NCBI GenBank assembly: GCA_015231395.1
Contig: JADGBP010000009.1
Span: forward strand, 1-15,523
Length of the DNA stretch: 15,523 nt
Source: Desulfamplus sp.
Lineage (GTDB): Bacteria > Desulfobacterota > Desulfobacteria > Desulfobacterales > Desulfobacteraceae
Reading direction: 5' to 3'
Part shown: positions 1,284 through 15,523 of the stretch, one piece after another
Numbering within the stretch: the stretch's first letter is position 1
How the letters are laid out: every line of letters begins with the position of its first letter
Notes under the pieces: model-generated
Database searches by the model: none
What the model saw: only the letters and a program-made list of their open reading frames with translations
Told to the model about the DNA's origin: nothing
Position numbers and translations under genes: made by a program

Positions 1284-1325
1284 TGCTTGAATACTCTTAA
1301 CCACTGCCTGAATATTCTCAACTAT
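1284..1325. repeat. Two-copy 21-bp tandem repeat upstream of hom
   Basis: Adjacent units at 1284-1304 and 1305-1325 match at 16 of 21 positions, and all five differences are C/T exchanges. Consensus begins TGCYTGAATAYTCT. It lies in the 5' leader or promoter zone of hom and directly abuts the next repeat array. Confidence 0.75.
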
Positions 1326-1414
1326 TGATCGTTAAATGTTGATCTTAATTGATCGTTAATGTTGATCCTAATTGATCGTTATGTTGATCCTGATTAATCG
1401 TTATGTTGATCCTG
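1324..1414. repeat. Four-copy 22-24-bp tandem repeat with seven GATC sites
   Basis: Units at 1324-1347, 1348-1370, 1371-1392 and 1393-1414 share the pattern ATTGATCGTTA(n)TGTTGATCCT. The A run after GTT shortens from 3 to 2 to 1 to 1, giving unit lengths 24, 23, 22 and 22. Each of the first three units has two GATC sites and the last has one. It is non-coding, so unit length is not held to multiples of three, unlike the intragenic arrays of this window. Confidence 0.85.
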
Positions 1415-2754: not shown

Positions 2755-3927
2755 ATGATTATACTTGGCATTGAATCTTCATGTGATGAAACAGCCGCTG
2801 CAGTAGTTGACGATGGAAAAACTATTCTCTCTTCTATAGTGGCATCACAGGTGGATGTGCATCATAAGTATGGTGGTGTTGTTCCTGAGCTTGCTTCCAG
2901 AATGCATATTGAGTCTATCATTCCGGTTGTTATGGATGCTATTGAGTCAGCCGGCATAACCATTGAACAGATTGAAGGTGTGGCTGTAACAAGAGGTCCG
3001 GGATTAATTGGTGCCCTGTTGGTGGGGTTTTCTTTTGCCAAAGCATTTGCATGGGCAAGGGCAATTCCTTGGACAGGAGTTAATCACTTAGAAGGTCATA
3101 TCTATTCAGTTCTGCTTACAGACGATCCTCCACAGTTTCCCTTTGTTATTCTATTAGCTTCCGGTGGTCATACAAATCTCTATAATGTGACATCGCCCGA
3201 TAAGTTTGAGCTTCTGGGACAAACTCGTGATGATGCTGCTGGTGAAGCATTTGATAAGGTAGCAAAAATGCTGGGTCTTGGTTATCCGGGTGGTGCGGTT
3301 ATTGAGAAACTTGCCCAAAAAGGTAACCATTCTGCTATCTCTTTTCCAAAAGCTTTTCTTGAAAAAAACAGCCTTGATTTTAGTTTTAGTGGTGTAAAAT
3401 CTGCTGTGGCTCGATATATCCATGAGCATTGCGGTTCTGATGCAGTCAAGAATTGGAAATCAGTAGATTTTAATGAAAATATGGCTGCTGACATAGCAGC
3501 TTCCTTCCAAGATTCTGTCATAGAAGTACTTTCGCAAAAACTTATCCGTGCGGCTCTTGACAAGGGAGTTCAGCATATAGCCGTGGCAGGCGGTGTAGCT
3601 GCAAATTCTGCTTTGAAAAAGAAACTCCTTTCATATATCAGCTCATCAGGTTCTACAGGAGCTTCAGGCAAAGCAGGATTTTCAGGAGCAGGAGTAGCAC
3701 AATCTTCAGCAGTAATAGCAGGATCTTCAGGAGCAGCACAATCTTCAGCAGTAATAGCAGGATCTTCAGGTAAGGGTGTTGGTGCCGGAAATTTAAAGCT
3801 TCATATCCCTCCTACTGCCCTTTGTGGTGACAATGCCGCCATGATTGCTGCAAGAGGCTACAGGCTTATTAAAGAGGGGAGGTTATGTCATATAGAACAT
3901 GATGTCTTTTCCCGCACAAAAAATTGA
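2755..3927 (+). CDS. tsaD: tRNA N6-threonylcarbamoyladenosine transferase TsaD with internal repeat insertion
   Basis: Transfers the threonylcarbamoyl group to A37 of ANN-decoding tRNAs with TsaB and TsaE (t6A synthesis, usually essential), in the cytoplasm. The N-terminal ILGIESSCDET, GGVVPELASR, VTRGPGLIGALLVG, the metal-binding HLEGH (H111, H115), ASGGHTNL, GEAFDKVAKMLGLGYPGG, FSFSGVKSA, AVAGGVAANSALKKKL and CGDNAAMIAARG are all present. The protein has 390 residues, against about 335-345 usually. The excess is a Gly/Ser/Ala-rich stretch of about 60 residues between KKKL and PPTALCGDN, where E. coli-type enzymes have roughly 15. It contains a 39-bp in-frame tandem duplication. The reading frame is intact and all active-site motifs survive, so the protein is probably functional. 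The ATG at 2755 has only a weak ribosome site (TAAGA); the start is supported by the conserved N-terminus. Confidence 0.96.
   Translation: MIILGIESSCDETAAAVVDDGKTILSSIVASQVDVHHKYGGVVPELASRMHIESIIPVVMDAIESAGITIEQIEGVAVTRGPGLIGALLVGFSFAKAFAWARAIPWTGVNHLEGHIYSVLLTDDPPQFPFVILLASGGHTNLYNVTSPDKFELLGQTRDDAAGEAFDKVAKMLGLGYPGGAVIEKLAQKGNHSAISFPKAFLEKNSLDFSFSGVKSAVARYIHEHCGSDAVKNWKSVDFNENMAADIAASFQDSVIEVLSQKLIRAALDKGVQHIAVAGGVAANSALKKKLLSYISSSGSTGASGKAGFSGAGVAQSSAVIAGSSGAAQSSAVIAGSSGKGVGAGNLKLHIPPTALCGDNAAMIAARGYRLIKEGRLCHIEHDVFSRTKN
3697..3770 (+). repeat. 39-bp in-frame tandem duplication inside tsaD
   Basis: A unit at 3697-3735 is followed by a 35-bp identical copy at 3736-3770. The period of 39 bp (13 codons) encodes AQSSAVIAGSSGA twice (residues about 315-339). 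A decayed related segment (GCAGGATTTTCAGGAGCA near 3673-3690) precedes it. Exact identity of the copies suggests a recent duplication. Confidence 0.92.
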
Positions 3928-4252
3928 ATGAAATGTTGTGCACATGCTATATATAATCCCTTTAAATTCTTGCAATAACCAACCTCACCTTCTCCATTTT
4001 TTGATTCTTCTTATCCACAGCACCGACCAGTTTGCCCTTTTAAAGGGGGTAAATCAACTGTCCCTCCTCATGCTGGCTGTAACTCAATTGTCCCACCCAT
4101 GGCTGTAACTCACAAAATGCATTGGTATCCAACATTACGGCTGTAGCCCACAAAACGTATTGGTGTTTCAAATTGTTTTTTTGCCTTTTAAAAAGTTATA
4201 TGATATTGCTTGCCAACTTTTTGAATTATGAATTTGGAGGCATATATATCTG
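3928..4252. other. 325-bp non-coding region before the glycan cassette, with degenerate repeats
   Basis: No credible gene is seen. The stretch contains decayed tandem repeats built around GGCTGTAACTCA, at 4075, 4101 and 4139 (spacings 26 and 38 bp). The last two copies extend to a shared CACAAAAYGYATTGGT block, and an AACTGTCCC/AATTGTCCC pair lies at about 4056 and 4086. CCCTTTTAAAGGG at 4035-4047 is a short palindrome. This region should hold the promoter of the downstream operon; a T-rich, A/T-rich zone at 4171-4210 is the likeliest place but no good -35/-10 pair stands out. GGAGG at 4236-4240 serves the next gene. Confidence 0.5.
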
Positions 4253-5377
4253 ATGTTTGACCATGAAATAATATATCCAAAAGAAATTATTCTTGAGATC
4301 ACAAATCTGTGTAATCTTAAATGCAGGTATTGCCACTTTCATGGAGAAGATGCAAAAATCAGAAGAAAGCTTGGATTTATGCCTTCTGAAATATGGAAAA
4401 AACTTTTGAATGAAATTAAAAAATGGAATAGACCATGCACAATTTTAACACATGGTGCAGGTGAACCATTACTATATCCGCATCTCAAAGACCTTCTCAC
4501 CCAAGCGAAAGAAATTCCTGAACTTTGTGTGGGTTTTATGACCAACGGAATGCTTCTGACCCCTGATATTTCAAGAATGCTTATTGAACTTAAGGTTAAT
4601 AGCATTGCACTTAGTATTGACGGAGTTATCCCTGAAACTCATGACCATTTCCGAAAGAATGCGGATTTGAAGCTTATTGAGAGTAATCTTCAGTATCTCA
4701 TAGCTGAAAAAAAGAGGTCTGAATCTGTTTTTCCTATGCTCACATTTAATATGGTTGGATACCCTGATATTCTGGATCAGGCAAATGACTATGTTCAAAA
4801 GTGGCTACCTCATGCAGATTCAGTAATGGTGTCTAAATTCAGACCTGTGGGATCAAGAAAACTTTGGGACAATACCACATCTAAGCCCACTTTTGATGCA
4901 AACTCTAATGTATCCTCTGAGCACACATTTAATCTAACCTCTGATACCACTTCTAAGTTAGCCTCTGATACCACTTCTAAGTTAGCCTCTGATACCACTT
5001 CTAATTTTACCTCTGATACCACCTTCAATTCCTCCCCGTTTTTTACAGCACCACTTTTTGTAGCGTGTCCCCTTCTTTATAATCAGACAGTGATATCCAT
5101 TGATGGAATTGTCGGTCTTTGCTGTGAAGATATCAATCTTGACGTACCTGTTGGAAATGTTTTGAATGATGACTTGCTGACACTATACAATAACAATCCA
5201 ATACTTAAAGGCTACCGAAGTGCCCATGAAAAACAGGAAATAGAAAAATTGACTCTCTGTTCAGACTGTCATGTATGGGGAGGGCACATCAATATTGAAA
5301 CATATGAAATGCGGATAGCTGATATGAGTGTTGTTTGTCAGGCTTCACCATCAGGAAAGGTATATAGAAAAATATGA
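4253..5377 (+). CDS. Radical SAM protein with SPASM-type C-terminal cysteine domain
   Basis: A radical SAM enzyme that would cleave S-adenosylmethionine with a [4Fe-4S] cluster. The cluster motif CNLKCRYC (C20, C24, C27) follows the typical ILEITNLCN strand. HGAGEPLLYP matches the GGE-like SAM-binding motif, and MTNGMLL and LSIDG are further family landmarks. The C-terminal half has CPLLYNQTVISIDGIVGLCCED, VGNVL and LCSDCH, the layout of a SPASM auxiliary-cluster domain. Seven 24-bp repeats (residues about 205-260) sit just before that domain. The ATG at 4253 has GGAGG 12 nt upstream, a slightly long spacing. It is the first gene of five; its stop overlaps the next start (ATGA). The substrate cannot be told from sequence; context suggests a sugar, lipid or peptide attached to a glycan. 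Confidence 0.85.
   Translation: MFDHEIIYPKEIILEITNLCNLKCRYCHFHGEDAKIRRKLGFMPSEIWKKLLNEIKKWNRPCTILTHGAGEPLLYPHLKDLLTQAKEIPELCVGFMTNGMLLTPDISRMLIELKVNSIALSIDGVIPETHDHFRKNADLKLIESNLQYLIAEKKRSESVFPMLTFNMVGYPDILDQANDYVQKWLPHADSVMVSKFRPVGSRKLWDNTTSKPTFDANSNVSSEHTFNLTSDTTSKLASDTTSKLASDTTSNFTSDTTFNSSPFFTAPLFVACPLLYNQTVISIDGIVGLCCEDINLDVPVGNVLNDDLLTLYNNNPILKGYRSAHEKQEIEKLTLCSDCHVWGGHINIETYEMRIADMSVVCQASPSGKVYRKI
4865..5032 (+). repeat. Seven in-frame 24-bp tandem repeats in the radical SAM gene
   Basis: Units start at 4865, 4889, 4913, 4937, 4961, 4985 and 5009. The central units (4937-5008) are nearly identical and encode an 8-residue unit of the form (T/A)SDTTSKL. The first three are increasingly diverged, and the last carries a few changes. 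The gradient suggests an old array whose centre was recently re-amplified. The segment is Ser/Thr/Asp-rich and likely a disordered loop between the radical SAM core and the SPASM domain. Confidence 0.93.
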
Positions 5378-6696
5378 GTTACTCAAACACTGTGAGTTAC
5401 AACACTATGAATTGCAGAGAAAATCTTGCAAGTTTAAAAACATTGGATGTTATATGGTGTTGCGGGCATCCACCCGATATTACAGAATCTGTATTCTCCT
5501 ATGATTATTGCAGAAAAACAAGCCGGCAGCTTTGTGAATCAAAGTTGAATGTCCTGTCATGGCATGATCTTGATTTTGGTTTTGCTTGTAGTGCTGATGA
5601 AAAAGCACGCTTTTTTTTACATTATAAAGAATTAGGTGCAGATTGTCTGATGATAGTTTCAAATCCGGAAATTGTAATCAGTCCTGCTGCTGTCAAAAAA
5701 ATGATGCAGACTTTAGAGAACGGAGTTGCAGTTATTCTTCCTGTTTTCAATGAAACCTCTAACTCGTCTCAATCTGCTAATATGCCCTGGATATATTTCA
5801 ATCTATCCACATATCTTGAAGTTTCGGAATTTATGGCAGACATTAACAAGTCTGTTATGCTAAATGGAATAGAAACCTGTGGGACAGAGATTACCCCTGA
5901 AAATATAGATTGTTCATGTGTCTTGATTCAAAAAGAGTTTGTGGAAAATTTTATATCATTTATAGAACACGGAATATCTCTTCAAGACGCTTTAACATCT
6001 TTTATATCTTACCTTGTATCCCGTAAACTTTGTGTTATTGAGACCAGTGCTCTGCTTCACTCATTCAGTGGCAGCTATTATGGCGGAAAACGCATAGATC
6101 TTGCAGACCTTGTTCCTGATCTGGCTGAAAATATTCTTGATGTCGGGTGTGCCAGCGGTGGATTTGGTGAACTGATGAAAACCAGACGCTCTGATATTCA
6201 TATTACAGGCGTTGAAATGAACAGTATTCTGGCTGAAAACGCATCTCGTCATTATGATCAAATCCATAACAATAAAATTGAAGATATCCATTTCAAGACA
6301 ACATTTGATCATATTAATTGCGGAGATATTATTGAGCATCTTGATGATCCATGGCAGATGCTCAAATTATTTTACATTTTGCTCAAAAAAGGCGGGTCAC
6401 TTGTTATAAGTATTCCAAATGCAGGGCACTGGACTATTGTAAAAGACCTGGCAGCAGGCAGATTTGAATATATTCCTGGTGGCTTGCTTTGTCTGACACA
6501 CATAAGATGGTTTACTGAAAAGAGCATAAAAGAAGCTCTTCAGGAGGCAGGATTTGATATTGAGTTGTTTCATCAAGGGCAGATACCTCCCACGCCATGC
6601 GGAGAAAGATTTATTGAATTACTTTGTGACAATAATATGGGAGATCGCACCTCCCTTTTAACCAATGCTTTTACCATAAGGGCTTGGAAACGATGA
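5374..6696 (+). CDS. Two-domain protein: N-terminal glycosyltransferase-like region plus class I SAM methyltransferase
   Basis: The C-terminal half (from about residue 245) is a class I methyltransferase. It has motif I ILDVGCASGGFGELMK (about 254-269), the acidic TGVEMN, an INCGDIIEHLDDPW motif, GGSLVISIPN, and the GGLLCLTHIRWFT segment seen in methyltransferases of surface-glycan clusters. The N-terminal half (about 240 residues) is not clearly recognised. The pattern DCLMIVSNPEIVIS followed by CSCVLIQKEFVENF resembles a degenerate family 2 glycosyltransferase, without a convincing DXD, so this is tentative. The start ATG at 5374 overlaps the upstream stop by four bases, pointing to translational coupling. 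The first codons contain a short duplication (SYSNTV then SYNTM, 5377-5409). A later ATG at 5407 lacks a ribosome site. Target of methylation is unknown; a sugar is the best guess from context. Confidence 0.82.
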   Translation: MSYSNTVSYNTMNCRENLASLKTLDVIWCCGHPPDITESVFSYDYCRKTSRQLCESKLNVLSWHDLDFGFACSADEKARFFLHYKELGADCLMIVSNPEIVISPAAVKKMMQTLENGVAVILPVFNETSNSSQSANMPWIYFNLSTYLEVSEFMADINKSVMLNGIETCGTEITPENIDCSCVLIQKEFVENFISFIEHGISLQDALTSFISYLVSRKLCVIETSALLHSFSGSYYGGKRIDLADLVPDLAENILDVGCASGGFGELMKTRRSDIHITGVEMNSILAENASRHYDQIHNNKIEDIHFKTTFDHINCGDIIEHLDDPWQMLKLFYILLKKGGSLVISIPNAGHWTIVKDLAAGRFEYIPGGLLCLTHIRWFTEKSIKEALQEAGFDIELFHQGQIPPTPCGERFIELLCDNNMGDRTSLLTNAFTIRAWKR

Positions 6697-7808
6697 GTGT
6701 TTCTGCAATCATTGTTAACTATCACACATCTAAATATCTGCCGGAGCTGATTGATGACCTTATAGCCCTTAAAGATATTGAGCAGATTTTTATTGTGGAT
6801 AACAGCAGTGAAATTGATGGCTCTTTTTTGAGCAACTACTTTGTTTCGTATCCGCATAGAATAGAGCTTATCAAACCAGGTAAAAATTTAGGATTTGGAG
6901 CTGGTGTAAATCTTGCGGCTTCCAGAGCATCTTCAGAATATCTTTTGGTGATTAATCCTGATGTCAGACTTTTTCCAGACTGTCTGACTCATCTGCTTGA
7001 GGCTGCCCGTAAATATGGTTCAGTGCTTACAGGGCCAAGATTTTTCTGGGATGATGCAAAAAAATACAAGTTGCCGCCAAGTCAGGGGGCTTCTTCATGG
7101 TTAGATTACGCTTTTGAAGCTGCGGGCGGCAGCCGTCTTGAATTTGAACATCTCTCGTTTTATTGGCAAATGTGTCATGAAAGATTCTGGAGCTACACAA
7201 CCCCGTTTACAGAACTATTCCTTTCTGGAGCCTGTGTATTAATTAATCGTCAGTGGGCAATGGAAAGTTTGTCTGCTGTATTTGATGAGCGGTTTTTTCT
7301 CTATTTTGAAGACAATGATATCTCTTTGCGTGCTCATTTTAACGGAGTTCCACCGCTATGCGTTCCTGCGGCAGAGGCTTTGCACCATTATGATCAGTCT
7401 CCATCACCGGAAAAATCCAAAGCAGATCTTATGGCTCAATCCCATATTCAGTTCTCTGAAAAATATTATGGTGGTATGACATATCTGCTGAATAAAAAAG
7501 ATACTTACCTGCCGGAAATCAGTGATATGGGATTAAATACATCACCTTTCTCTTTTGATACAAAGTGCCTTGAACCGTCTGTCGGTAATCTTTATTTTGA
7601 AATTGGTGTAAATCCATGTTTTGTTCCATTTGCCCAGACAGATATAAAAGTTACTCAGACAGATATAAAAGGACTTTATGAGAACAAAATAGATGTGTTT
7701 ACATTGGACAGTACTATCTGGAACAGACTTGCAAAAGGGATTTATTATGGAAGGGCAAGAGACAGTATTAAAGGAACACTGAAGATATGGAAATGGCAAA
7801 AAGTATAG
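6693..7808 (+). CDS. Family 2 glycosyltransferase (rhamnosyltransferase-like)
   Basis: Transfers a nucleotide-activated sugar to a growing glycan, probably at the inner face of the membrane. The N-terminus VSAIIVNYHTSKYL, then FIVDNSS, NLGFGAGVNLAASRASSEYLLVINPDVRLFP and FFLYFEDNDISLRAHFNG match the GT2 subgroup that includes WbbL-like rhamnosyltransferases; NPDV stands at the place of the DXD metal motif. The last 100 residues are not recognised and include a two-copy 21-bp repeat. I chose the ATG at 6693, whose ATGA overlaps the previous stop; a TTG at 6684 in the same frame would add MET before MSV. The sugar and acceptor cannot be assigned. The 3' end overlaps the next gene by 22 bp. Confidence 0.9.
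   Translation: MSVSAIIVNYHTSKYLPELIDDLIALKDIEQIFIVDNSSEIDGSFLSNYFVSYPHRIELIKPGKNLGFGAGVNLAASRASSEYLLVINPDVRLFPDCLTHLLEAARKYGSVLTGPRFFWDDAKKYKLPPSQGASSWLDYAFEAAGGSRLEFEHLSFYWQMCHERFWSYTTPFTELFLSGACVLINRQWAMESLSAVFDERFFLYFEDNDISLRAHFNGVPPLCVPAAEALHHYDQSPSPEKSKADLMAQSHIQFSEKYYGGMTYLLNKKDTYLPEISDMGLNTSPFSFDTKCLEPSVGNLYFEIGVNPCFVPFAQTDIKVTQTDIKGLYENKIDVFTLDSTIWNRLAKGIYYGRARDSIKGTLKIWKWQKV
7635..7671 (+). repeat. Two-copy 21-bp in-frame repeat in the glycosyltransferase gene
   Basis: CAGACAGATATAAAAG occurs at 7635-7650 and again at 7656-7671, a period of 21 bp (7 codons). It encodes QTDIKVT then QTDIKG (residues from about 315). The shared 16 bp are identical. It lies outside the catalytic core. 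Confidence 0.85.
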
Positions 7809-8914
7809 TATGGAGAGACGAAACTCTGGTTATACGAAAATATGATGTTAAACGAGATCAGGAAAAAGTTCTTGAACTCTGGCAAGCAGCATTTGGCAAT
7901 CAGATCTCTTCCAGCCTGTGGCAATGGAAATATATTGAAAATCCCTATTCCACCACCATCCTGATCTGTGAAAATGCCAAAGGAATGCCTGTGGTACTTT
8001 ATGGGGGCATCCCTTTTACTTCAATATGCTTTGGCAGAACAATAAGGATGATTCATCTTTCTGATATAATGTCCCATCCTGATTACAGAGGCAGCGGGCT
8101 TTTTATTCAAACAGCCAATGCCTATTTTGAGACCTTTGGCAATATAGACGATATTTGTATTATGTATGGCTTTCCTGGAAAATATCATTTTGATATTGGT
8201 GCAAAATACCTGAACTATTCACAACTGGGGGATGGAGCTGCTTTTTTCAGGGGTGATTGCAAAAACATAAAATCTTTAAAGCATATCATTTCTGGCAGTA
8301 TTCATCTGGCTCATGCTCCAAGTCATAGTTCTGACCAGACAAATTACAGTTCTGATAAGGTAATTCATCATTCTGAACATACAAATTACAGTTCTGATAA
8401 GGCAGCTCATTGTTGTGATAAAACAAGTCATAATTATGATCAGACAAGTCATGATTTTGACCAGATATGGAGAAATGCTTCAACAGACTACCCTCTAAGT
8501 GTGATTAGAAATAGTGCCTATGTGGAGTGGAGATATTTCAACCATCCGGAAAAAACATATGAAGTGTGGTGTTACAAGACTCGATTCAATAAAGATTCCA
8601 AGGCGTTCATAGTGATTCAAATAAAGGGTAGAAAAGCTGTTATCGTCGATATATTGGTACAAAACTCTGAAAAAATATTCCGTGATTTTTTAGGTAATAT
8701 TGCTTCAATGCTTCTAAAAAGAGGGATAGAAACCGTTGAAGTCTGGGTGCCTCATGACCATTTTCTTGCGGTTTTTTTCCAGGGTTGCGGCGTTAAAAGA
8801 ACCAAAGAACCAATTGGTATTATTCCAACCGTTCGATTGTTTGATGATATGCTTGATATTAAACAAGTCTGCCAGAACTTTTATTATAGCATGGGAGATG
8901 GCGATCTGCTTTGA
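7787..8914 (+). CDS. GNAT-family acyltransferase with heptad-repeat insertion
   Basis: Probably transfers an acetyl or other acyl group from CoA to an amine, perhaps an amino sugar. The N-terminal VIRKYDVKRDQEKVLELWQ and SSLWQWKYIENPYS, then SDIMSHPDYRGSGLFIQTANAYF carrying the R-G-S-G CoA-binding loop, and IMYGFPGKYHFDIGAKYLNY fit a two-lobed GNAT type often found in polysaccharide clusters. The second lobe begins after the repeat at NSAYVEWRYFNHPEKTYEVW. Between the lobes is a 49-residue array of 7-residue repeats (about 178-226). Starts at 7787 and 7793 (both ATG) are possible; the first is reported. It overlaps the upstream gene by 22 bp, and its TGA overlaps a TTG of the next gene. The fold is fairly sure; the substrate is unknown. 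Confidence 0.82.
   Translation: MEMAKSIVWRDETLVIRKYDVKRDQEKVLELWQAAFGNQISSSLWQWKYIENPYSTTILICENAKGMPVVLYGGIPFTSICFGRTIRMIHLSDIMSHPDYRGSGLFIQTANAYFETFGNIDDICIMYGFPGKYHFDIGAKYLNYSQLGDGAAFFRGDCKNIKSLKHIISGSIHLAHAPSHSSDQTNYSSDKVIHHSEHTNYSSDKAAHCCDKTSHNYDQTSHDFDQIWRNASTDYPLSVIRNSAYVEWRYFNHPEKTYEVWCYKTRFNKDSKAFIVIQIKGRKAVIVDILVQNSEKIFRDFLGNIASMLLKRGIETVEVWVPHDHFLAVFFQGCGVKRTKEPIGIIPTVRLFDDMLDIKQVCQNFYYSMGDGDLL
8318..8464 (+). repeat. Seven in-frame 21-bp tandem repeats in the acyltransferase gene
   Basis: Seven consecutive 21-bp units start at 8318, 8339, 8360, 8381, 8402, 8423 and 8444. Each encodes seven residues with consensus T-S-H-x-x-D-Q/K; position 3 is His or Tyr in every unit and position 6 is Asp or Glu. 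Units 2 and 4 are identical at DNA level, which suggests duplication of a two-unit (42-bp) block. A weaker possible unit precedes the array at 8297-8317. The composition (His, Asp, Ser) predicts an exposed disordered segment. Confidence 0.93.
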
Positions 8915-8919
8915 ATCTA

Positions 8920-10845
8920 ATGGTTTCTAAACTAATGAACGAAAATCAACTTGTACCTTATTATGCTTCACCGCTCCCTTCCGGTCCATATCTTGTATTT
9001 GCGCCACACCCTGATGATGAAACACTTGGTATGGGTGGAACAATAATCCTTGCAGCCAAATCAGGTATTGAAGTTAATATCGTATTTGTTACTGATGGTG
9101 GAAAAGGTGGAGACCCTGCTACAAGAAAAAAAGAGGCAGCAGCAGCATCTGAAATCCTTGGAGCCAAAAATATTTTTCACTTAAACCTGCCTGATCGTGA
9201 GGTTGGGCTAACTCCATTTCCTGAGCAGACTCTTCTTGAAATTATGGAACAGGTTAAACCGGCAACTGTTTTTTTGCCTTCTTTTCAGGAGATTCATCCA
9301 GATCACAGAGCTACAAATCATGTTGTTTTATCTTTTTTTGAGCACCGGATTAAACACCAACAAGAGTATGAACTTGGGCATGAACATAAACTTATGCATG
9401 GGCATGGTCATGAATATAAACTTGGGCATGATCATGAGTTTGGGCATGATTTCCAGATGTGGTTCTATGAAATCAATCGTCAAGGAGAAATCAATCGTTT
9501 GATTGATATCTCTGACGCAATTGAAATAAAAGAACAAGCTATAGATTGTTATGCGAGTCAATTGGCTCAATTGGACTATAAATCTCAATGTCTCTGTTTA
9601 GACTACGCACGCAGCATTACGCTTGGTGATAATATTTCCTATGCCGAAGGATTCTGGTTATGTCCAAAAGATGTTCCTGTTACACTGCTGTCTATCTGGA
9701 ATAGTTATCATAAAGAGATATACTCATATCAATGCCCTGCATCAATGAGTATATCCGCCTGTATATCTTCTCGTGTTTTTTCAGACATAAAACATGTTCA
9801 ATCTTGCGAATTTGAACAACTTTGTGAATCCGATCGACCTTCTGAATCCGAACAATTGTCCGAATCAGGGCAAAATTTTCACATAACAGATGTGCAGACA
9901 TTGGTTTCTGTTATTGTGAGAACAAAAGAGAGACTTTCATTGCTTGAAGAAGCTCTTGGAAGTATTGCCGGACAGACTTGGCGTTATATTGAAGCAGTTG
10001 TGGTTAATGATGGTTCTGATGATATTGATGCAGTGATTCAAAAATTCAGACAATCTATTTTCAGAATAGTTTGTGTAAGAACCGAAGAAAAAAATGGGCG
10101 AGTAGCAGCAGCCAACAAAGGTATTGAAACTGCTACTGGTGAGTGGATAATGTTTCTTGATGATGATGATCTGCTTGAGCCTGATGCATGCTTTAACTTA
10201 TTGAACAAAGCTGTTCAAACCAATGCGTCGGTCGTTTATGGTAAGGTTTTGAGAAGACATTATCTGGAAAATGGTCATGTTGATATCAGAAAGCCGGAAT
10301 ATGTATATGGAAGGGTTTTTGATAAAGATTTGATTGTTATGGAAAACTATATCCCGTTTAATGCCTTGTTGATCAATCGGCAGCTTGCCTGCCAGTCATA
10401 TCCGTTAAGGGAAGATCTTACTCTTTTTGAAGATTGGGATTTTTTGATTTTATTATCCCGTAAAGTTGATTTTGTATATCTTCCGGTTCAGGTGGCAATA
10501 TATCGATGCTGGGAGAGTTCAACCGCAACGGGAAGTCGTTTTTCCCATGAGGAGATTGTAAAAGCGGAACAATTGATTAGCCAGAAGTGGCATCAGAATA
10601 TTACTTTTAAAAACATTCTGGCATTTCGAGAATATATTGTTGAGCAAACGCAAGAAGCAACTCAAAAAGGACTTCAAGAAAAGGCTCAAGAAGAAATGAC
10701 TCTTCAGCTTAATTTTGCAGATACAAGCTTTGCAAATACAAATCAAGTTCATGAGTCATGTGACAACTCCTTTGTTGAAAAGTTGTTATTATCTGCTAAA
10801 AGGCTAAAAAACCTGACGAGCAAAAAGTTCAAGAATAGAATATAA
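8920..10845 (+). CDS. PIG-L/LmbE-type deacetylase fused to a family 2 glycosyltransferase
   Basis: N-terminal domain (about residues 20-250): zinc-dependent N-acetyl-sugar deacetylase type, with the signature FAPHPDDETLGMGG, VTDGGKGGDP and the later HPDHRATNH metal motif. C-terminal domain (about 325-560): GT2 fold, with VSVIVRTKERLSLLEEALGS, VVVNDGSDD, GRVAAANKGIETATGEW, the metal-binding run FLDDDDLLEPD and FEDWDFLILLSRK. The linker and the deacetylase domain each hold tandem repeats, and a Gln/Glu-rich tail follows. A protein of this build could deacetylate a sugar and add another in one chain. The ATG at 8920 is reported; a TTG at 8911 overlapping the previous stop, with GGAG 13 nt upstream, is a real alternative. 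It is the last gene of the five-gene run. Confidence 0.88.
   Translation: MVSKLMNENQLVPYYASPLPSGPYLVFAPHPDDETLGMGGTIILAAKSGIEVNIVFVTDGGKGGDPATRKKEAAAASEILGAKNIFHLNLPDREVGLTPFPEQTLLEIMEQVKPATVFLPSFQEIHPDHRATNHVVLSFFEHRIKHQQEYELGHEHKLMHGHGHEYKLGHDHEFGHDFQMWFYEINRQGEINRLIDISDAIEIKEQAIDCYASQLAQLDYKSQCLCLDYARSITLGDNISYAEGFWLCPKDVPVTLLSIWNSYHKEIYSYQCPASMSISACISSRVFSDIKHVQSCEFEQLCESDRPSESEQLSESGQNFHITDVQTLVSVIVRTKERLSLLEEALGSIAGQTWRYIEAVVVNDGSDDIDAVIQKFRQSIFRIVCVRTEEKNGRVAAANKGIETATGEWIMFLDDDDLLEPDACFNLLNKAVQTNASVVYGKVLRRHYLENGHVDIRKPEYVYGRVFDKDLIVMENYIPFNALLINRQLACQSYPLREDLTLFEDWDFLILLSRKVDFVYLPVQVAIYRCWESSTATGSRFSHEEIVKAEQLISQKWHQNITFKNILAFREYIVEQTQEATQKGLQEKAQEEMTLQLNFADTSFANTNQVHESCDNSFVEKLLLSAKRLKNLTSKKFKNRI
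9364..9447 (+). repeat. Histidine-rich in-frame 18-bp repeats in the deacetylase domain
   Basis: 18-bp units at 9364, 9382, 9412 and 9430, with a 12-bp GHGH segment at 9400-9411, encode the consensus (E/D)-(Y/H)-(K/E)-(L/F)-(G/M)-H. Ten histidines fall within 28 residues (about 149-176). The array lies right after the HPDHRATNH zinc motif and before FQMWFYEI, so it is an insertion in a loop near the active site. Confidence 0.85.
9805..9876 (+). repeat. Four in-frame 18-bp repeats in the deacetylase-glycosyltransferase linker
   Basis: Units at 9805, 9823, 9841 and 9859 encode six residues each, consensus (C/S)-E-S-E-Q-L. The acidic, Ser/Gln-rich segment (about residues 296-319) lies exactly between the deacetylase and glycosyltransferase domains. 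Confidence 0.82.
10714..10743 (+). repeat. Two-copy 15-bp in-frame repeat near the end of the fusion gene
   Basis: Units at 10714-10728 and 10729-10743 encode FADTS and FANTN; 12 of 15 bases agree. They lie in the poorly conserved C-terminal tail. Two short copies alone are weak evidence, but they fit the pattern elsewhere in the window. Confidence 0.55.
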
Positions 10846-10910
10846 GCAGCTTCGTTATAATTGTTGTTTGATGGAAAATCCTGATGATAGAAATTCTCGA
10901 ATAAAAACAA

Positions 10911-10940
10911 AGTAGAGACGCACGGTCGTGCATCTCTACT
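10911..10940. terminator. Bidirectional hairpin terminator between convergent genes
   Basis: GTAGAGACGCACG (10912-10924) pairs with CGTGCATCTCTAC (10927-10939) with a single G-T type mismatch, plus an A-T pair outside. On the minus strand the stem is followed at once by TTTGTTTTTATT, an excellent intrinsic terminator for the rubredoxin-like gene. On the plus strand a T run (10949-10954) begins several bases after the stem and could help end the five-gene operon. Confidence 0.85.
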
Positions 10941-10952
10941 CGCGATTATTTT

Positions 10953-11630
10953 TTAATCCTTGAAAACCAGCTTGCCACCAAGATGCCCTGCGATACCGGC
11001 ACAAGCAAGCATTATAACATTTAACAGGATAAACAGCCATGAAAGGCAAGAAGAGAGAACCTGTGGATCAGAAATATACCATACCACATTAAAAACACAG
11101 ATAATCGTTGTTACAGAAGCTGATATAATTTTAACAACAAACAGTGATGTCATGGCTTTGTTATATTTTTTTATCCATTCGACATATCCGGCAAAAAGAA
11201 CAAAGGGCAGAACAAGCAATACAAACAGCATGTTGAAAAAACCAGCGGCTGAAAGGGTTTTGGAGAGAGTATTTGCTATTGAAATTTCAGTGTTGTTAAA
11301 TAAAACCGCCAATATGAAAAAAGTCACAGCCACAGGCAGCACTCCATTTGGAAAATGAACTGAAATGGGATGGGCATGGTGCTTTACAATAAGCTCCTGC
11401 AGTGATTTGTAAAGTTTAATGATTCTTGGTTTACCCGCCTCAATGATAGCCTTCTGTTCTGAAATCTTTTTTTCCAGCTCCTTTATTCTCAAGGAGTCTT
11501 TTGATTTTTCATCCTGTTCTATCTCAAACAGAACAAACTTTGATGCCGGAGCTTTGCAGATGGGACATCTTGCAGGGGGTTCATCTCCTTCATGAATATA
11601 TCTGCATATTGTACATTTCCATTTTTTCAT
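10953..11630 (-). CDS. Rubredoxin-like domain fused to four-helix DUF2231-type membrane protein
   Basis: The N-terminus MKKWKCTICRYIHEGDEPPARCPICKAP has two C-x2-C pairs, the iron-binding layout of a rubredoxin or rubrerythrin tail domain. A charged, probably helical segment (residues about 45-85) leads to HPISVHFPNGVLP, the hallmark of the DUF2231 membrane family, and four hydrophobic segments: about 92-112, 120-147, 155-180 and 190-220. It is most likely an inner-membrane protein with a cytoplasmic one-iron redox centre, perhaps in electron transfer or oxidative-stress defence; the function is inferred only. The ATG at 11630 has a perfect GGAGG 6 nt upstream; an upstream TTG at 11642 lies before that site and is rejected. 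It is convergent with the glycan operon. Confidence 0.85.
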   Translation of the reverse strand: MKKWKCTICRYIHEGDEPPARCPICKAPASKFVLFEIEQDEKSKDSLRIKELEKKISEQKAIIEAGKPRIIKLYKSLQELIVKHHAHPISVHFPNGVLPVAVTFFILAVLFNNTEISIANTLSKTLSAAGFFNMLFVLLVLPFVLFAGYVEWIKKYNKAMTSLFVVKIISASVTTIICVFNVVWYISDPQVLSSCLSWLFILLNVIMLACAGIAGHLGGKLVFKD

Positions 11631-11934
11631 AAAAACCTCCAAGGAAGCCTCTACTCCTTTATAGGTAGGGGACGTTGACTTTTAATATAGACTTCCAGAA
11701 AAATATTTCTGCATTCTCAATTTTGAAGGGCAACCACAAAGGATTGCCCCTACAGTGCTCTTGCCAATTTAATTATCTGGAAAACTATAGAACCATAATG
11801 CTGATGTTTCTACTATATTGCAATTCATTTGTCTTTATTTTTTTTGATGCTCTTATCAATCGACTTACCTTTTGTCGTTTGCCTGTCTCTTCACTTCAAA
11901 ATTAATCCAATAATTGTCACAGGAAAAAATAAAA
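11631..11934. other. Divergent intergenic region with GTAGGGG-type inverted repeats
   Basis: This region should hold divergent promoters for the membrane protein and the YitT-like gene. CCTCTAC (11648-11654) faces GTAGGGG (11665-11671). A second hairpin, GGGCAACC (11728-11735) with GATTGCCC (11742-11749), ends in CCCCTAC (11747-11753), which is the exact complement of 11665-11671. The 11665-11753 segment is thus an 89-bp unit bounded by 7-bp inverted ends. A weak promoter-like pair, TTGCCA (11761) and TATAGA (11786), has too long a gap (19 bp). A 76-codon open frame here has no ribosome site or family match and is not called. Confidence 0.5.
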
Positions 11935-12798
11935 ATGCGTTTGGAAAAAAAATCGCTGAGATCATCTGTATTTTGGAATATGTTCCTTCTTTTGACAGGC
12001 TCTGTTATTTTCAGTATCGGTCTAAATGGTATTGTTATACCCCATGGATTTATAACAGGGGGAATTTCCGGATTTTGTCTTCTTATTTTCTATCTTACTG
12101 GCAAACTCTCACCTGGTGTTTGGTATTTTATCATCAACATCCCTTTGTTTATAATTGGCTGGCTTTTTATCAGCCGCCGGTTCTTTTTTTATAGCCTCTA
12201 TGGAATGGTTGTTCTCTCTTTATGTATGGATATGGTTTCATTTCATATTGAAATCAAGGATTCATTTCTTGCAATTCTTGCCGGAGGGACAATCCTTGGA
12301 GTAGGTGGTGGTATTACTCTTCATTCGCTTGGCTCTCTTGGTGGAATAGATATTATTTCAATTCTTCTGAATCAGAAATTTGGCGTACGCATTGGTACGT
12401 TTCTTTTTACATTTAACATGATTCTTTTTGTATCAAGTTTTGGTTCTCTTGACACAGATCTTGTCCTCTACTCTATTGCATTGAGTTTTGTTACATCTAA
12501 GGTGCTGGAATCTGTTCTCACAATGTTTAATCAACGGAAAATGATTCTGATTATTTCAAACTCCAGTGACCAGATAGCCGGTGTTATCAAGGAAAATCTT
12601 CAAAAAGGAGCTACCTTTTTAAATGGTGTTGGTGCTTACAGTGGCAATGAGAAAAAAATAATTTTAACTGTAGTGCATAATTATCAGCTCAAACGCCTTG
12701 AAGAGGCTGTCTTGAACATTGATCCTGATGCATTTATGATTACCGAAAACACATTCAATGTCATGGGCAAGGGATTTTCAAAACCAAAGGTTTACTAA
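11935..12798 (+). CDS. YitT family membrane protein (DUF161 plus DUF2179)
   Basis: The 287 residues fit the family length. About five hydrophobic helices fill residues 12-185; family landmarks are the IPHGFITGGISGF segment near residue 35, the GGTILGVGGGITLHSLGSLGGIDIIS loop, and the C-terminal cytoplasmic DUF2179 domain (about 200-287) with GATFLNGVGAYSGNEKKIIL and NIDPDAFMITENTFNVMGKGF. The molecular role is not settled in the family; it is an inner-membrane protein, possibly a transporter with a regulatory domain. The ATG at 11935 has AGGA 10 nt upstream; a TTG at 11914 would place the ribosome site inside the gene and is rejected. No repeat insertion is seen. The next gene is co-directional after 137 bp. 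Confidence 0.9.
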   Translation: MRLEKKSLRSSVFWNMFLLLTGSVIFSIGLNGIVIPHGFITGGISGFCLLIFYLTGKLSPGVWYFIINIPLFIIGWLFISRRFFFYSLYGMVVLSLCMDMVSFHIEIKDSFLAILAGGTILGVGGGITLHSLGSLGGIDIISILLNQKFGVRIGTFLFTFNMILFVSSFGSLDTDLVLYSIALSFVTSKVLESVLTMFNQRKMILIISNSSDQIAGVIKENLQKGATFLNGVGAYSGNEKKIILTVVHNYQLKRLEEAVLNIDPDAFMITENTFNVMGKGFSKPKVY

Positions 12799-12840
12799 TT
12801 GGACTTTGAACAAGCATAATTCCTGAATCAAAATGAAGCT

Positions 12841-12900
12841 CCCCGCCGCAAGGAACGGGGTATCTTTAAAAACATTACAACGCCCCAAGGGGCGGGGTAT
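12841..12900. repeat. GC-rich palindromic repeat doublet (REP-like) before comEC
   Basis: Two palindromic units, about 12845-12863 and 12882-12900, match at 16 of 19 positions with period 37 bp, and both end in CGGGGTAT. Unit 2 contains CGCCCC-AA-GGGGCG; unit 1 has CCCCG and CGGGG arms. In addition CCCCGCC (12841-12847) is the exact complement of GGCGGGG (12891-12897). The local G+C is far above the surroundings. No T run follows, so it is not a standard terminator. It resembles dispersed palindromic repeats, but no second locus is in this window. Confidence 0.7.
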
Positions 12901-12935
12901 GAACCCAAGCTTCGAAATCAAAAAACAGGCGGCAT

Positions 12936-15523
12936 GTGAAAATTTTTCTGAAACATGGCATTCCTCCACTACTTCCTCTGTTTCTATCTCTGTGCGGAGG
13001 TATTGCTGCTGCTAATTATGGAGGAATTACAACAGATAATTATCTTGTTATTCAGAAATTTCAATCCAACATTAATGGCGGTGAAGTCGCTAATATTCCA
13101 ATTGTTTCCAACTCCTTGTTACTTGTGTTTCTTGTGTTAATTTTATTTTTTATAGCCATGATTTTGCTTCTTTTTTTTGTTTCCAGACACACTCCCAAAG
13201 CTCTTCAATTCCAGCATTTGACTTATTCTTCTTATCGCCTTCCTTATCTCTTTCCTTATATTTTTGTAATTCTGTTTTTTATATCAGGATATTATCTTTT
13301 TAAGTCATCAATGTTTCCTGATCATCCTCCAAACCATATCTCAAATTTTACGGACAAAGGGATTTCACAGATTACCGGTACAATATCTTCTGTGCCTGAA
13401 GAGTTTTATAACCAATCTGAAAAATCTAAAAAAAATAATGATTCGGAAAAAAATGACAGACGAATACGATTTAATCTATCTGTTGAAAATATCATGACAA
13501 GCACCAATACGGTCGATAAGAAAGAGACTGCGGTCAATAAGAAAGAGACTGAGACTGCGGTCAATAAGAACGGGGATACGGTCAAGAAAAGTATAAATCA
13601 CAGAGTCACAGGAATAATTCAGATGACCGTTTATAGGCCTTTGGTGCAATATAACAAGGGAGATACTATTCAATTCAAAGGCAAAATAAAGTCTATCCGC
13701 AACTTCAATAATCCCGGAGGATTTGATTATGTTCGATATATGAAACTTAAGGATATCTGGGGAAAAGTCAGTACTAATGGTAAAAATATTACTTCATATT
13801 GTCCGACAATGCCTGAGTATGGTTCGAACAAATCTGATATGGAACAACTCAATTTACTATTCAATTCTTTTAATGATTTAAATTCGTCAAATTCTCTTAA
13901 TAATTTAAATTCGTCAAATTCACTTAATTCGTTAAATTCACTCATTTTTTTTAATTCTCTCAATTCCCTGTCAAGTGCCATAATTGCCAAAATAGATAAT
14001 TTCAGGGACGATTTTGCCACGCATATTTTTAAACACATTGACAATAGAGACTCTGCAGCAATTTTATGTGCACTGAGTACAGGTAACAAAGAATTTGTTT
14101 CAAAAGAGCTGAGTCGAGATTTTTCCAGAACTGGTGGCAGCCATATTCTTGCAATATCAGGACTGCATTTGTCGATTGTGGCAACTCTTTTTTTTTATAT
14201 GTTCAATGCTTTTCTGTCGTGCTTCAAGTGGGTGCTGATTCGCGGGTGGAGCAAAAAAGGTGCGGCTTTGCTGACGATTCTGCCCATTGTGGCTTACGCG
14301 GTTCTTTCCGGCTATTCTGATGCTACTGAGCGAGCCATGATTATGATTATCATTTTTATGATCGCGGCAGTCATAGAACGTGAGAGTAACAGCTTCAACT
14401 CTCTTTGTGCAGCCGGTATTGTGATTCTTATCCTGAATCCGGCATCTCTTTTTATGGTCTCTTTTCAACTTTCATTTTCAGCCGTGTTTTTTATCCTGAT
14501 GGGATTGTCCTTGTCTGCTGATTATAAAATTGAGATTAAAAACAGCATTTTAAAAAAATTCACAAGTTTTATTTTTATATCCATGTGTGCTATTGCCGGC
14601 ACCCAGATTTTGGTTATGCACTATTTTAATATTTTCTCTTTTTCCGGTCTTATTGTTAATATTATTCTTATTCCCTGTGTCGGTTTTGGAGCACTCTCTC
14701 TTGGACTTGCCGCCCTTTTTTTTTATCCCTTTTCATTGGTAATATCGGGTTTTCTGATTCAATGTGCAGGACTTATCCTGACACCTTGCATCGCATTCAT
14801 CAAAACTGTTGCAAGCCTCCCTTGGAGCTACATTGAAACATTTAAACCTGATATTCTTGAAATAGCCTGCTATTACCTGTTTGTCTCAGCTCTTTTTGTT
14901 GCTGCGAAGGCGTGGAAAAAAGAATCGGGGAATGTATTTGTCAGGGGAGGGGTGACAATAGCATTGTTATCATGCCTGACACTTCTGATCCATGAAGCTG
15001 TATGGATTAAAAAAAGATTTTTTAATGACGATCTTGTGGTTACTATTTTAGATGTAGGGCAGGGTAATTCCGCTTTGATTGAGATGCCACAAGGAAAGAG
15101 TATTTTGGTTGATGGGGGAGGCTTTTTTTATGGCGGGAATTTTGATACTGGAGAGCATATTATCGCTCCTTTTCTAAGACTCAAAAAAATCATGACTCTG
15201 GACGCAGTTGTTCTGACTCATCCAGACTCGGATCACATGAATGGACTTGTCTATATTTTTAAACATTTTAAGATCAATCTGTTGATAAAAAACTGTGACC
15301 AGCAGCAAAATGATGCTTACAAAGCTCTGATCGCCCAAGTTGAAAAAAAAGGGACTAATGTCTATATAGTTGATCATAGATCAAACTCAATTAAGATTGG
15401 CAAGGGCGAATTGCATTTTTTTCATCCTTTGAAAGTTTGTCCAGATACAAATTTAAAAAATATCAATACAAACTCTTTTAATGACAATTTTGTCAATGAT
15501 AACTCTGTCAATGACAACTCTGT
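12936..15523 (+). CDS. comEC: ComEC/Rec2 family DNA-uptake channel (3' end cut by window edge)
   Basis: Inner-membrane channel that moves single-stranded DNA into the cytoplasm during natural transformation. 862 codons are visible with no frameshift, still open at the edge. The N-terminus has hydrophobic helices (LLPLFLSLCGGI; a long one at about 60-85; another at about 115-130), then a soluble OB-type region with NNPGGFDYVRYM. The competence membrane domain is marked by GGSHILAISGLHLS (about residue 402) and many helices to about 690. A metallo-beta-lactamase-like domain follows (ILDVGQGNSALIEMP, LVDGGG, THPDSDH near 760). A TGA at 12900-12902 closes the frame upstream and the GTG at 12936 is the only sensible start; AGGCGG lies 3 nt before it, an unusually short spacing. 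Three in-frame repeat arrays lie in soluble segments. Whether the cell is competent cannot be judged from this gene alone. Confidence 0.93.
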   Translation, partial: MKIFLKHGIPPLLPLFLSLCGGIAAANYGGITTDNYLVIQKFQSNINGGEVANIPIVSNSLLLVFLVLILFFIAMILLLFFVSRHTPKALQFQHLTYSSYRLPYLFPYIFVILFFISGYYLFKSSMFPDHPPNHISNFTDKGISQITGTISSVPEEFYNQSEKSKKNNDSEKNDRRIRFNLSVENIMTSTNTVDKKETAVNKKETETAVNKNGDTVKKSINHRVTGIIQMTVYRPLVQYNKGDTIQFKGKIKSIRNFNNPGGFDYVRYMKLKDIWGKVSTNGKNITSYCPTMPEYGSNKSDMEQLNLLFNSFNDLNSSNSLNNLNSSNSLNSLNSLIFFNSLNSLSSAIIAKIDNFRDDFATHIFKHIDNRDSAAILCALSTGNKEFVSKELSRDFSRTGGSHILAISGLHLSIVATLFFYMFNAFLSCFKWVLIRGWSKKGAALLTILPIVAYAVLSGYSDATERAMIMIIIFMIAAVIERESNSFNSLCAAGIVILILNPASLFMVSFQLSFSAVFFILMGLSLSADYKIEIKNSILKKFTSFIFISMCAIAGTQILVMHYFNIFSFSGLIVNIILIPCVGFGALSLGLAALFFYPFSLVISGFLIQCAGLILTPCIAFIKTVASLPWSYIETFKPDILEIACYYLFVSALFVAAKAWKKESGNVFVRGGVTIALLSCLTLLIHEAVWIKKRFFNDDLVVTILDVGQGNSALIEMPQGKSILVDGGGFFYGGNFDTGEHIIAPFLRLKKIMTLDAVVLTHPDSDHMNGLVYIFKHFKINLLIKNCDQQQNDAYKALIAQVEKKGTNVYIVDHRSNSIKIGKGELHFFHPLKVCPDTNLKNINTNSFNDNFVNDNSVNDNS
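13509..13577 (+). repeat. In-frame 21-bp repeats in the soluble N-terminal region of comEC
   Basis: 21-bp units at 13509, 13530 and 13557 encode (T/A)-V-(D/N)-K-K-E-T. A 6-bp duplication of GAGACT (13551-13556) separates the second and third, itself in frame. A partial fourth unit follows at 13578. The segment (about residues 192-214) is Lys/Glu-rich and sits inside the OB-type soluble region. Confidence 0.88.
13863..13970 (+). repeat. In-frame 27-bp repeats (Asn/Ser/Leu-rich) in comEC
   Basis: 27-bp units at 13863, 13890 and 13917 and a diverged one at 13944 encode N-S-(F/L)-N-(D/N/S)-L-N-S-S. An inner 9-bp period (Asn-Ser-Leu) suggests nested slippage. The array (about residues 310-345) lies before the competence membrane domain. 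Confidence 0.88.
15480..15523 (+). repeat. In-frame 15-bp repeats in the C-terminal domain of comEC, running off the edge
   Basis: 15-bp units at 15480, 15495 and 15510 encode N-D-N-(F/S)-V. The array is cut by the window end, so the copy number is unknown. It lies in the metallo-beta-lactamase-like domain, about 85 residues after THPDSDH. Confidence 0.88.

Follow-up and report, generated by a model that had tools for sequence, protein, structure and literature searches.

In contingency repeats, for which Haemophilus influenzae is an example, short units shift the reading frame at chosen surface loci. Rickettsia palindromic elements are in-frame extra segments in unrelated genes, and the genomes of Ehrlichia ruminantium and Wolbachia, which are host-bound, are rich in tandem repeats. 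For Bacillus, the accessible part of one study describes large differences between species and a class of repeats that encodes repeated peptides and has a period divisible by three; in the same part, constant sizes of 20–21 and 51–53 nt dominate and most genomes hold few coding repeats (PMC8161180). Tandem repeats have been reported, by a method other than the one used here, in >30% of bacterial proteins (accessible part of PMC7230257). In Plasmodium falciparum, replication slippage has been proposed for the low-complexity and asparagine-rich inserts, and whether these are neutral or selected is debated (PMC5762703 and PMC3749963, accessible parts). No previous description of in-frame repeat growth of the kind reported below was found for Desulfamplus or magnetotactic bacteria in the literature searched; the Desulfamplus tandem-repeat literature that was found concerns magnetochrome domains.

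The window, i.e., the whole stretch of 15,523 nucleotides that was analyzed, is contig C548 of a MAG of the genus Desulfamplus (2.81 Mb, 548 contigs, 52% complete; hereafter the source genome). The genus is represented by Desulfamplus magnetovallimortis (G001) and Desulfamplus sp. MAGs, and G003, G004, G006, and G008 are named MAGs (100% identity). A preliminary description of the window had reported repeats in six genes, and when TRF was combined with a self-match scan, matches were obtained in exactly those six. TRF (score of at least 50, period of at least 6, overlapping rows merged to the best one) gave eight arrays inside genes, all with a period divisible by three, and one intergenic array. 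The scan of nine window genes gave one self-match each in tsaD, the radical SAM gene and the GT2 gene, two each in the GNAT and PIG-L-GT2 genes and three in comEC, but none in the methyltransferase, yitT-like and purM genes. One of the two PIG-L-GT2 self-matches was weak and distant (offset 108). All ten offsets were divisible by three, as had been claimed for every unit length, and only 0.09 self-matches per window were expected from codon-shuffled window genes (0.065+0.01+0.015).

All of the coding arrays of the window lie on the plus strand. In tsaD, a unit of 39 bp is repeated 2.1 times with a 97% match (3689..3770, TRF), within an insert of TsaD and adjoining the upstream side of the conserved CGDNAAMIA. 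The array of the radical SAM-SPASM gene (24/48 bp, 4876..5022, TRF) falls in an insert of ~56 residues (residues 213–268, 4889–5056). A 21 bp unit in the GT2 gene (7635..7671) was detected by the self-match scan and was absent from the TRF rows, and both methods recovered the 21/42 bp arrays of the GNAT gene (8327..8465). In the PIG-L deacetylase-GT2 gene, both methods gave a degenerate 24/48 bp array (9367..9437) instead of the 18 bp unit of the preliminary description, and the second 18 bp unit named there was not recovered by the scans. Three arrays were located in comEC: one of 21/27 bp (13510..13570, both methods) in the linker that holds a KLPERKG array in D. magnetovallimortis, one of 27 bp × 2.9 (13863..13939, TRF) between the DUF4131 and Competence matches, and one of 15 bp (15471..15523, TRF) made of copies of a resident NDNS motif and truncated by the window end. 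The intergenic array (1324..1413, no strand) has a period of 22–23 or 45 depending on the row; its best unit, 22, is not a multiple of three and serves as an internal contrast. No Rfam families were found in the window. The radical SAM, methyltransferase, GT2, GNAT, and PIG-L-GT2 genes form a run (4253–10845), perhaps a surface glycan cluster, and the best G004 matches of three of them share one contig (C43). On the minus strand, 10953–11642 encodes a protein for which a rubredoxin-like domain is predicted, with a DUF2231 membrane domain after it.

The segments that carry the arrays were compared with orthologues. One loop of TsaD was enlarged in seven members of the genus, its size varying between roughly a dozen and >50 residues and its content being dissimilar; it was hardly enlarged in G009, and the insert was missing in all six aligned genomes from outside the genus. 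The radical SAM insert was missing from all 11 aligned homologues, which were picked among 120 listed, and the GNAT insert (~40 residues) from all ten aligned homologues among 68 others found, two of them having a few residues there. As judged from match positions only, residues ~147–179 of the PIG-L-GT2 protein were without counterpart in G002, G003, G005, G007, and G008, whose matches abut at the array, and G004 and G009 aligned through the site with shorter gaps. In ComEC, the KLPERKG array of D. magnetovallimortis occupies the site of the NKKETETAVNK repeat of the source genome, and repetitive segments were seen by eye at another linker in G003 and G008. The comparison with orthologues, put forward in the preliminary description as a check, therefore came out in its favor, as the aligned TsaD, radical SAM, and GNAT proteins lack the inserts or have other sequence at the site.

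The absence of whole segments from these orthologues, and not just of extra copies, would also fit a mobile element that inserts into genes in frame, like the Rickettsia palindromic elements. The preliminary description had dismissed such an element because the units have no common sequence, and this was sustained: none of 1219 array pairs shared a 14-mer and three shared a 12-mer (a random-segment control for shared words was set aside, as its segments could overlap). Furthermore, the periods of the 50 coding arrays of the source genome range from 12 to 102 bp, mostly 12–45, and in two genes the unit is a resident conserved motif. The last copy of the GNAT array extends into F224-D225, which is invariant in 11 aligned sequences, and the 15 bp unit of comEC repeats NDNS, present once in G004, G005, G006, and G007 and in altered form in the others. 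The founding units of TsaD and of the radical SAM protein of the source genome were not traced clearly to resident sequence; in P0009, a radical SAM protein of the same length as the G002 one, the N-terminal extension repeats its own first residues, as seen by eye. No signature of a mobile element was found in the arrays, and this origin is considered highly improbable.

Array density was analyzed with one pipeline in 20 contigs of the source genome (110 kb) and, for 12 other genomes, in 86–200 kb apiece, the sampled genomes being mostly incomplete MAGs. TRF rows with a period below 6 were dropped and only the best-scoring of overlapping rows was kept; arrays not fully within the chosen ORF were counted as noncoding, and those overlapping an ORF by <10% (75 in total) were divided 24/26/25 by remainder. 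L005 of G006 (22 kb, two coding arrays with periods of 24 and 13) was left out of the pooled table. Ten sampled stretches had been picked for holding tsaD, and densities without them were similar. The proposal that the process acts genome-wide and not only in the window was supported, since 56.2 coding arrays per 100 kb of coding DNA were found in the window and 42.6 in the 20 other contigs. The combined value of 44 also stands far above the 3–5 found outside the genus (G016 5.4, G010 4.1, G017 2.8, G023 2.8). Among the congeners, G002 reached 25.2, followed by G003 (11.3), G008 (10.6), G001 and G004 (10.1 each), G005 (9.9), G007 (7.7), and G009 (2.0). The genome-wide process is real; most members of the genus show it at a raised level, and the source genome shows it most strongly.

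Among ORFs of at least 150 codons, an array was present in 23 of 67 cases in the sample of the source genome, 5 of 11 in the window and 17 of 79 in G002, compared with 2.4–12.1% in the other congeners and 2.5–4.9% outside the genus. The 34% of the source genome is comparable only to the 2.5–4.9% from the same pipeline, because the published bacterial survey used another method (PMC7230257). Perfect tandem duplications numbered 199 per Mb in the source genome and 189 in G002, ~14-fold above the 14 of the genomes outside the genus; the six other congeners pooled had 28, and G009 had 9 (one case). Many of the duplications are thus perfect and hence young.

These densities bear on whether the arrays are just the usual low-complexity linkers expected at low GC content, with a duplication rate that is not raised. 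N, S, K, D, and E are indeed frequent in the arrays, and proteins in general often contain low-complexity linkers (accessible part of PMC7230257). Nevertheless, G009 (37% GC) and G005 (34% GC) have 2 and 10 arrays per 100 kb against 43 in the source genome (35% GC), so that base composition was also rejected as a cause of the density. In addition, 6-mer shuffles yielded 0 to 2.2 arrays per 100 kb, the density of intergenic arrays is also elevated, and perfect duplications exceed those of the genomes outside the genus 14-fold. Ordinary linkers are thus a very improbable explanation.

In the source genome and the window (112 kb of coding sequence sampled), the period was divisible by three in 50 of 50 coding arrays, but in only 7 of 15 noncoding ones. 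In the pool of eight genus genomes (the source genome and its congeners, G009 kept apart and G006 left out), the counts were 143/150 and 30/92 (Fisher p = 1.2e-26), so that multiples of three are enriched in coding arrays and not in noncoding ones, in favor of the preliminary description, and G009 pooled with the four outside genomes gave 20/25 and 3/7. The perfect duplications of the eight genomes behaved alike, with units divisible by three in 45/45 coding and 12/29 noncoding cases. The one-third share of the noncoding arrays is the expectation for a frame-blind process. In-frame arrays were almost as dense inside genes as outside them, both in the source genome (44.3 and 53.7 per 100 kb, a ratio of 0.83) and genus-wide (14.9 and 20.9, 0.71). 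By contrast, out-of-frame arrays in the eight genomes reached 0.73 per 100 kb in genes and 43.2 outside. Therefore, the process is indifferent to genes, which lose the frame-breaking two thirds and retain most of the rest, and the claim that selection retains the frame was upheld by the ~59-fold rarity of frame-breaking arrays in genes. Ten of the 62 noncoding arrays with a period that is not a multiple of three are flanked on both sides by ORFs of one strand and may be traces of disrupted genes.

The strict preservation of the frame also bears on the quality of the assembly. The source genome is a fragmented metagenome bin, and several other dense genomes are also MAGs, which might suggest that the repeats are artefacts of assembly or binning. 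An artefact would ignore the frame, but 50 of 50 coding arrays respect it, and degenerate copies are present; moreover, D. magnetovallimortis, which is recorded as an isolate, has 10 coding arrays per 100 kb and also carries an array in the corresponding linker of ComEC. An artefactual origin is consequently most unlikely. As a separate observation, a similar sequence of ~60 bp, of the TTTACC(G/A)TGAAAA type and in either orientation, was seen within noncoding arrays of D. magnetovallimortis and the source genome (L057:16350-16464, L061:14541-14751, L064:5710-5843, L041:11442-11636, and L040:900-941), and might represent a family of repeats interspersed between the genes of this genus.

The arrays were found in proteins of all kinds, including gyrase A, RecJ, a CheA-like kinase, UbiA, a PTS enzyme I-like protein, and a helicase-like protein of 2304 residues. 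The gene of DNA gyrase A (L041:5633-8434, minus strand) carries a 27 bp × 7.7 array at the C-terminal tail and a 24 bp × 3 array near the N-terminus. The arrays of the source genome were enriched in N (3.0×), S (2.1×), H, D, T, K, and E, and depleted in W, Y, L, R, and M. The preliminary description had located the arrays in loops, linkers and domain boundaries. In agreement with this, the midpoints of 8 of 41 arrays fell inside a Pfam match compared with 20.6 expected, and none of 5000 simulations gave a count as low; the agreement comes with caveats, since only the best stretch per family was considered and an insert may itself end a match, both of which may lower the inside count. The test covers 41 of the 50 arrays, the other nine being in hosts without a match (4 of the 20 sent) or not sent (4 of the 24 sample hosts). 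AlphaFold predicted a folded core for the radical SAM and GNAT proteins (alignments of 12 and 11 sequences) with pLDDT <50 over residues 197–265 and 181–217, respectively, and a few other weak stretches; these low values may partly reflect that the alignments are shallow and that no other sequence covers the inserts.

The divergence between the copies was also analyzed. Copy identity across the 50 coding arrays of the source genome ranged from 100% (five arrays) to <75% (five arrays). Differences at codon positions 1/2/3, counted in arrays without indels, were 56/71/74 in the sample of the source genome and 11/13/13 in the window. The synonymous share was close to that of uniform change in the sample (0.24 and 0.22) and was 0.29 against 0.19 in the window. 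In the eight genomes it was 137/502, slightly over the uniform expectation of 0.17–0.23 per genome, and it is possible that the repeated peptide is under some constraint outside the source genome. This slight synonymous excess in some congeners, the polar, N- and S-rich composition and the recurrence of arrays at the same TsaD and ComEC linkers in several species could be taken to indicate selected functional segments, i.e., length-tunable linkers or contingency segments that provide adaptive protein variation. Against this, the hosts include such proteins as gyrase A and UbiA, intergenic arrays are equally dense, the copies of the source genome diverge evenly across codon positions, and recurrence at tolerant sites is expected without any benefit as well. 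Selection for variable segments is therefore regarded as unlikely.

Recent changes were sought as gaps between the closer pairs of congeners. Clean tandem duplications accounted for 6 of 206 coding and 0 of 125 noncoding indels of at least 6 bp, in a crude test with ragged blastn gaps and with pairs that are not independent, some loci being one genome under two names. The closest pairs used were other congeners. A FastTree phylogeny of TsaD without the insert clustered the source genome with G003 and G008 (support 0.87) and placed G002 elsewhere (0.39, weak), so that, on this one-gene tree, the source genome and G002 may have become dense separately.

Additionally, repair genes were searched for in 15 genomes with a score cut-off. 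RecJ-type exonucleases limit repeat rearrangement in E. coli, and recJ was matched in all 15 genomes, above the cut-off in 14. mutS was above it in 12, with no match in the source genome and pieces in G002 and G004; xseA in 14, with none in the source genome; and sbcD in eight, being missing or below the cut-off in the source genome, G002, G003, G004, G008, G009, and G020. The absence of a gene from an incomplete genome such as the source genome is no proof of loss. Loss of recJ, mutS, xseA, or sbcD was rejected as the cause, because none gave a pattern fitting the density, the genomes with sbcD missing or below the cut-off being both dense and sparse ones. The recJ gene of the source genome (L055:1587-3647, minus strand) itself carries two arrays, of 24 bp × 3.6 (L055:1871-1956) and 30 bp × 2.2 (L055:2374-2438). 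Its open frame of 698 compares with 576–599 in five genomes outside the genus and 583–666 in the congeners (best match, where complete), although length was not tied to density, as G002, the second densest genome, has 602. The Pfam match of the OB domain in this RecJ ends at profile position 62 of 107, adjoining one of the arrays. RecJ-family matches were found on two contigs in G000, G004, G006, G007, G008, and G009, so that many members of the genus may possess two RecJ-like genes.

Taken together, the arrays are most probably the product of an ongoing local tandem duplication that is blind to genes and filtered mainly for frame and fold. Short tandem duplications, with the range of units given above, would arise genome-wide from the sequence resident at each site, presumably through replication slippage or misalignment, and the arrays would expand and then decay through point mutation. 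Selection would strip the frame-breaking arrays and most of those in folded cores and be near-indifferent to the others, so that the in-frame remainder would have a nearly neutral fate. As a result, the linkers and ends of all kinds of proteins would gain repetitive, polar, and probably disordered inserts. It is conceivable, although rather doubtful, that the lineage is in a heritable state of high tandem duplication, with its whole proteome inflating at the linkers. As the recJ gene of the source genome carries two arrays, the process might then even reinforce itself, the inserts weakening an enzyme by which they would otherwise be limited.

Compared with the systems described, the process is known in kind and, as far as compared, unusual in scale. 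As in H. influenzae, the arrays lie in genes and would arise by slippage, but the frame is kept and the hosts are general: units not divisible by three inside genes amounted to 0/50 in the source genome and 7/150 in the eight genomes, and no signature of frame switching was found in the arrays. Unlike the Rickettsia palindromic elements, the arrays have no element in common. Ehrlichia ruminantium and Wolbachia are likewise repeat-rich bacterial genomes, but those of host-bound organisms. The Bacillus repeats, in the part of the study accessible, resemble the present ones in the strong differences in number between species and in the class with a period divisible by three (PMC8161180). Here, in contrast, sizes vary, with no constant repeat size of the Subirana and Messeguer type among the 50 coding arrays, and coding arrays dominate by number.

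There is also a resemblance to P. falciparum, in which numerous ordinary proteins contain disordered inserts that are polar, rich in N and specific to the species (PMC5762703 and PMC3749963, accessible parts). In the source genome, too, an array is present in about one third of the sampled ORFs of at least 150 codons, with inserts absent from orthologues. Plasmodium differs in that its inserts are mainly single-residue runs, whereas the units found here, in a bacterium, are longer and locus-specific; moreover, here the copies differ evenly over codon positions and the intergenic arrays serve as a yardstick. The phenomenon provides a bacterial system, found in nature, where proteins receive in-frame insertions at a high rate and with little filtering, and where the intergenic arrays are an internal neutral yardstick. 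The amount of repetitive linker that a protein can tolerate, and its position, thereby become measurable, and a testable question is raised, namely what sets the tandem-duplication rate in a genus that still has RecJ and MutS. If the lineage were indeed in a heritable state of high duplication, its proteome would be a bacterial counterpart of the Plasmodium proteome.
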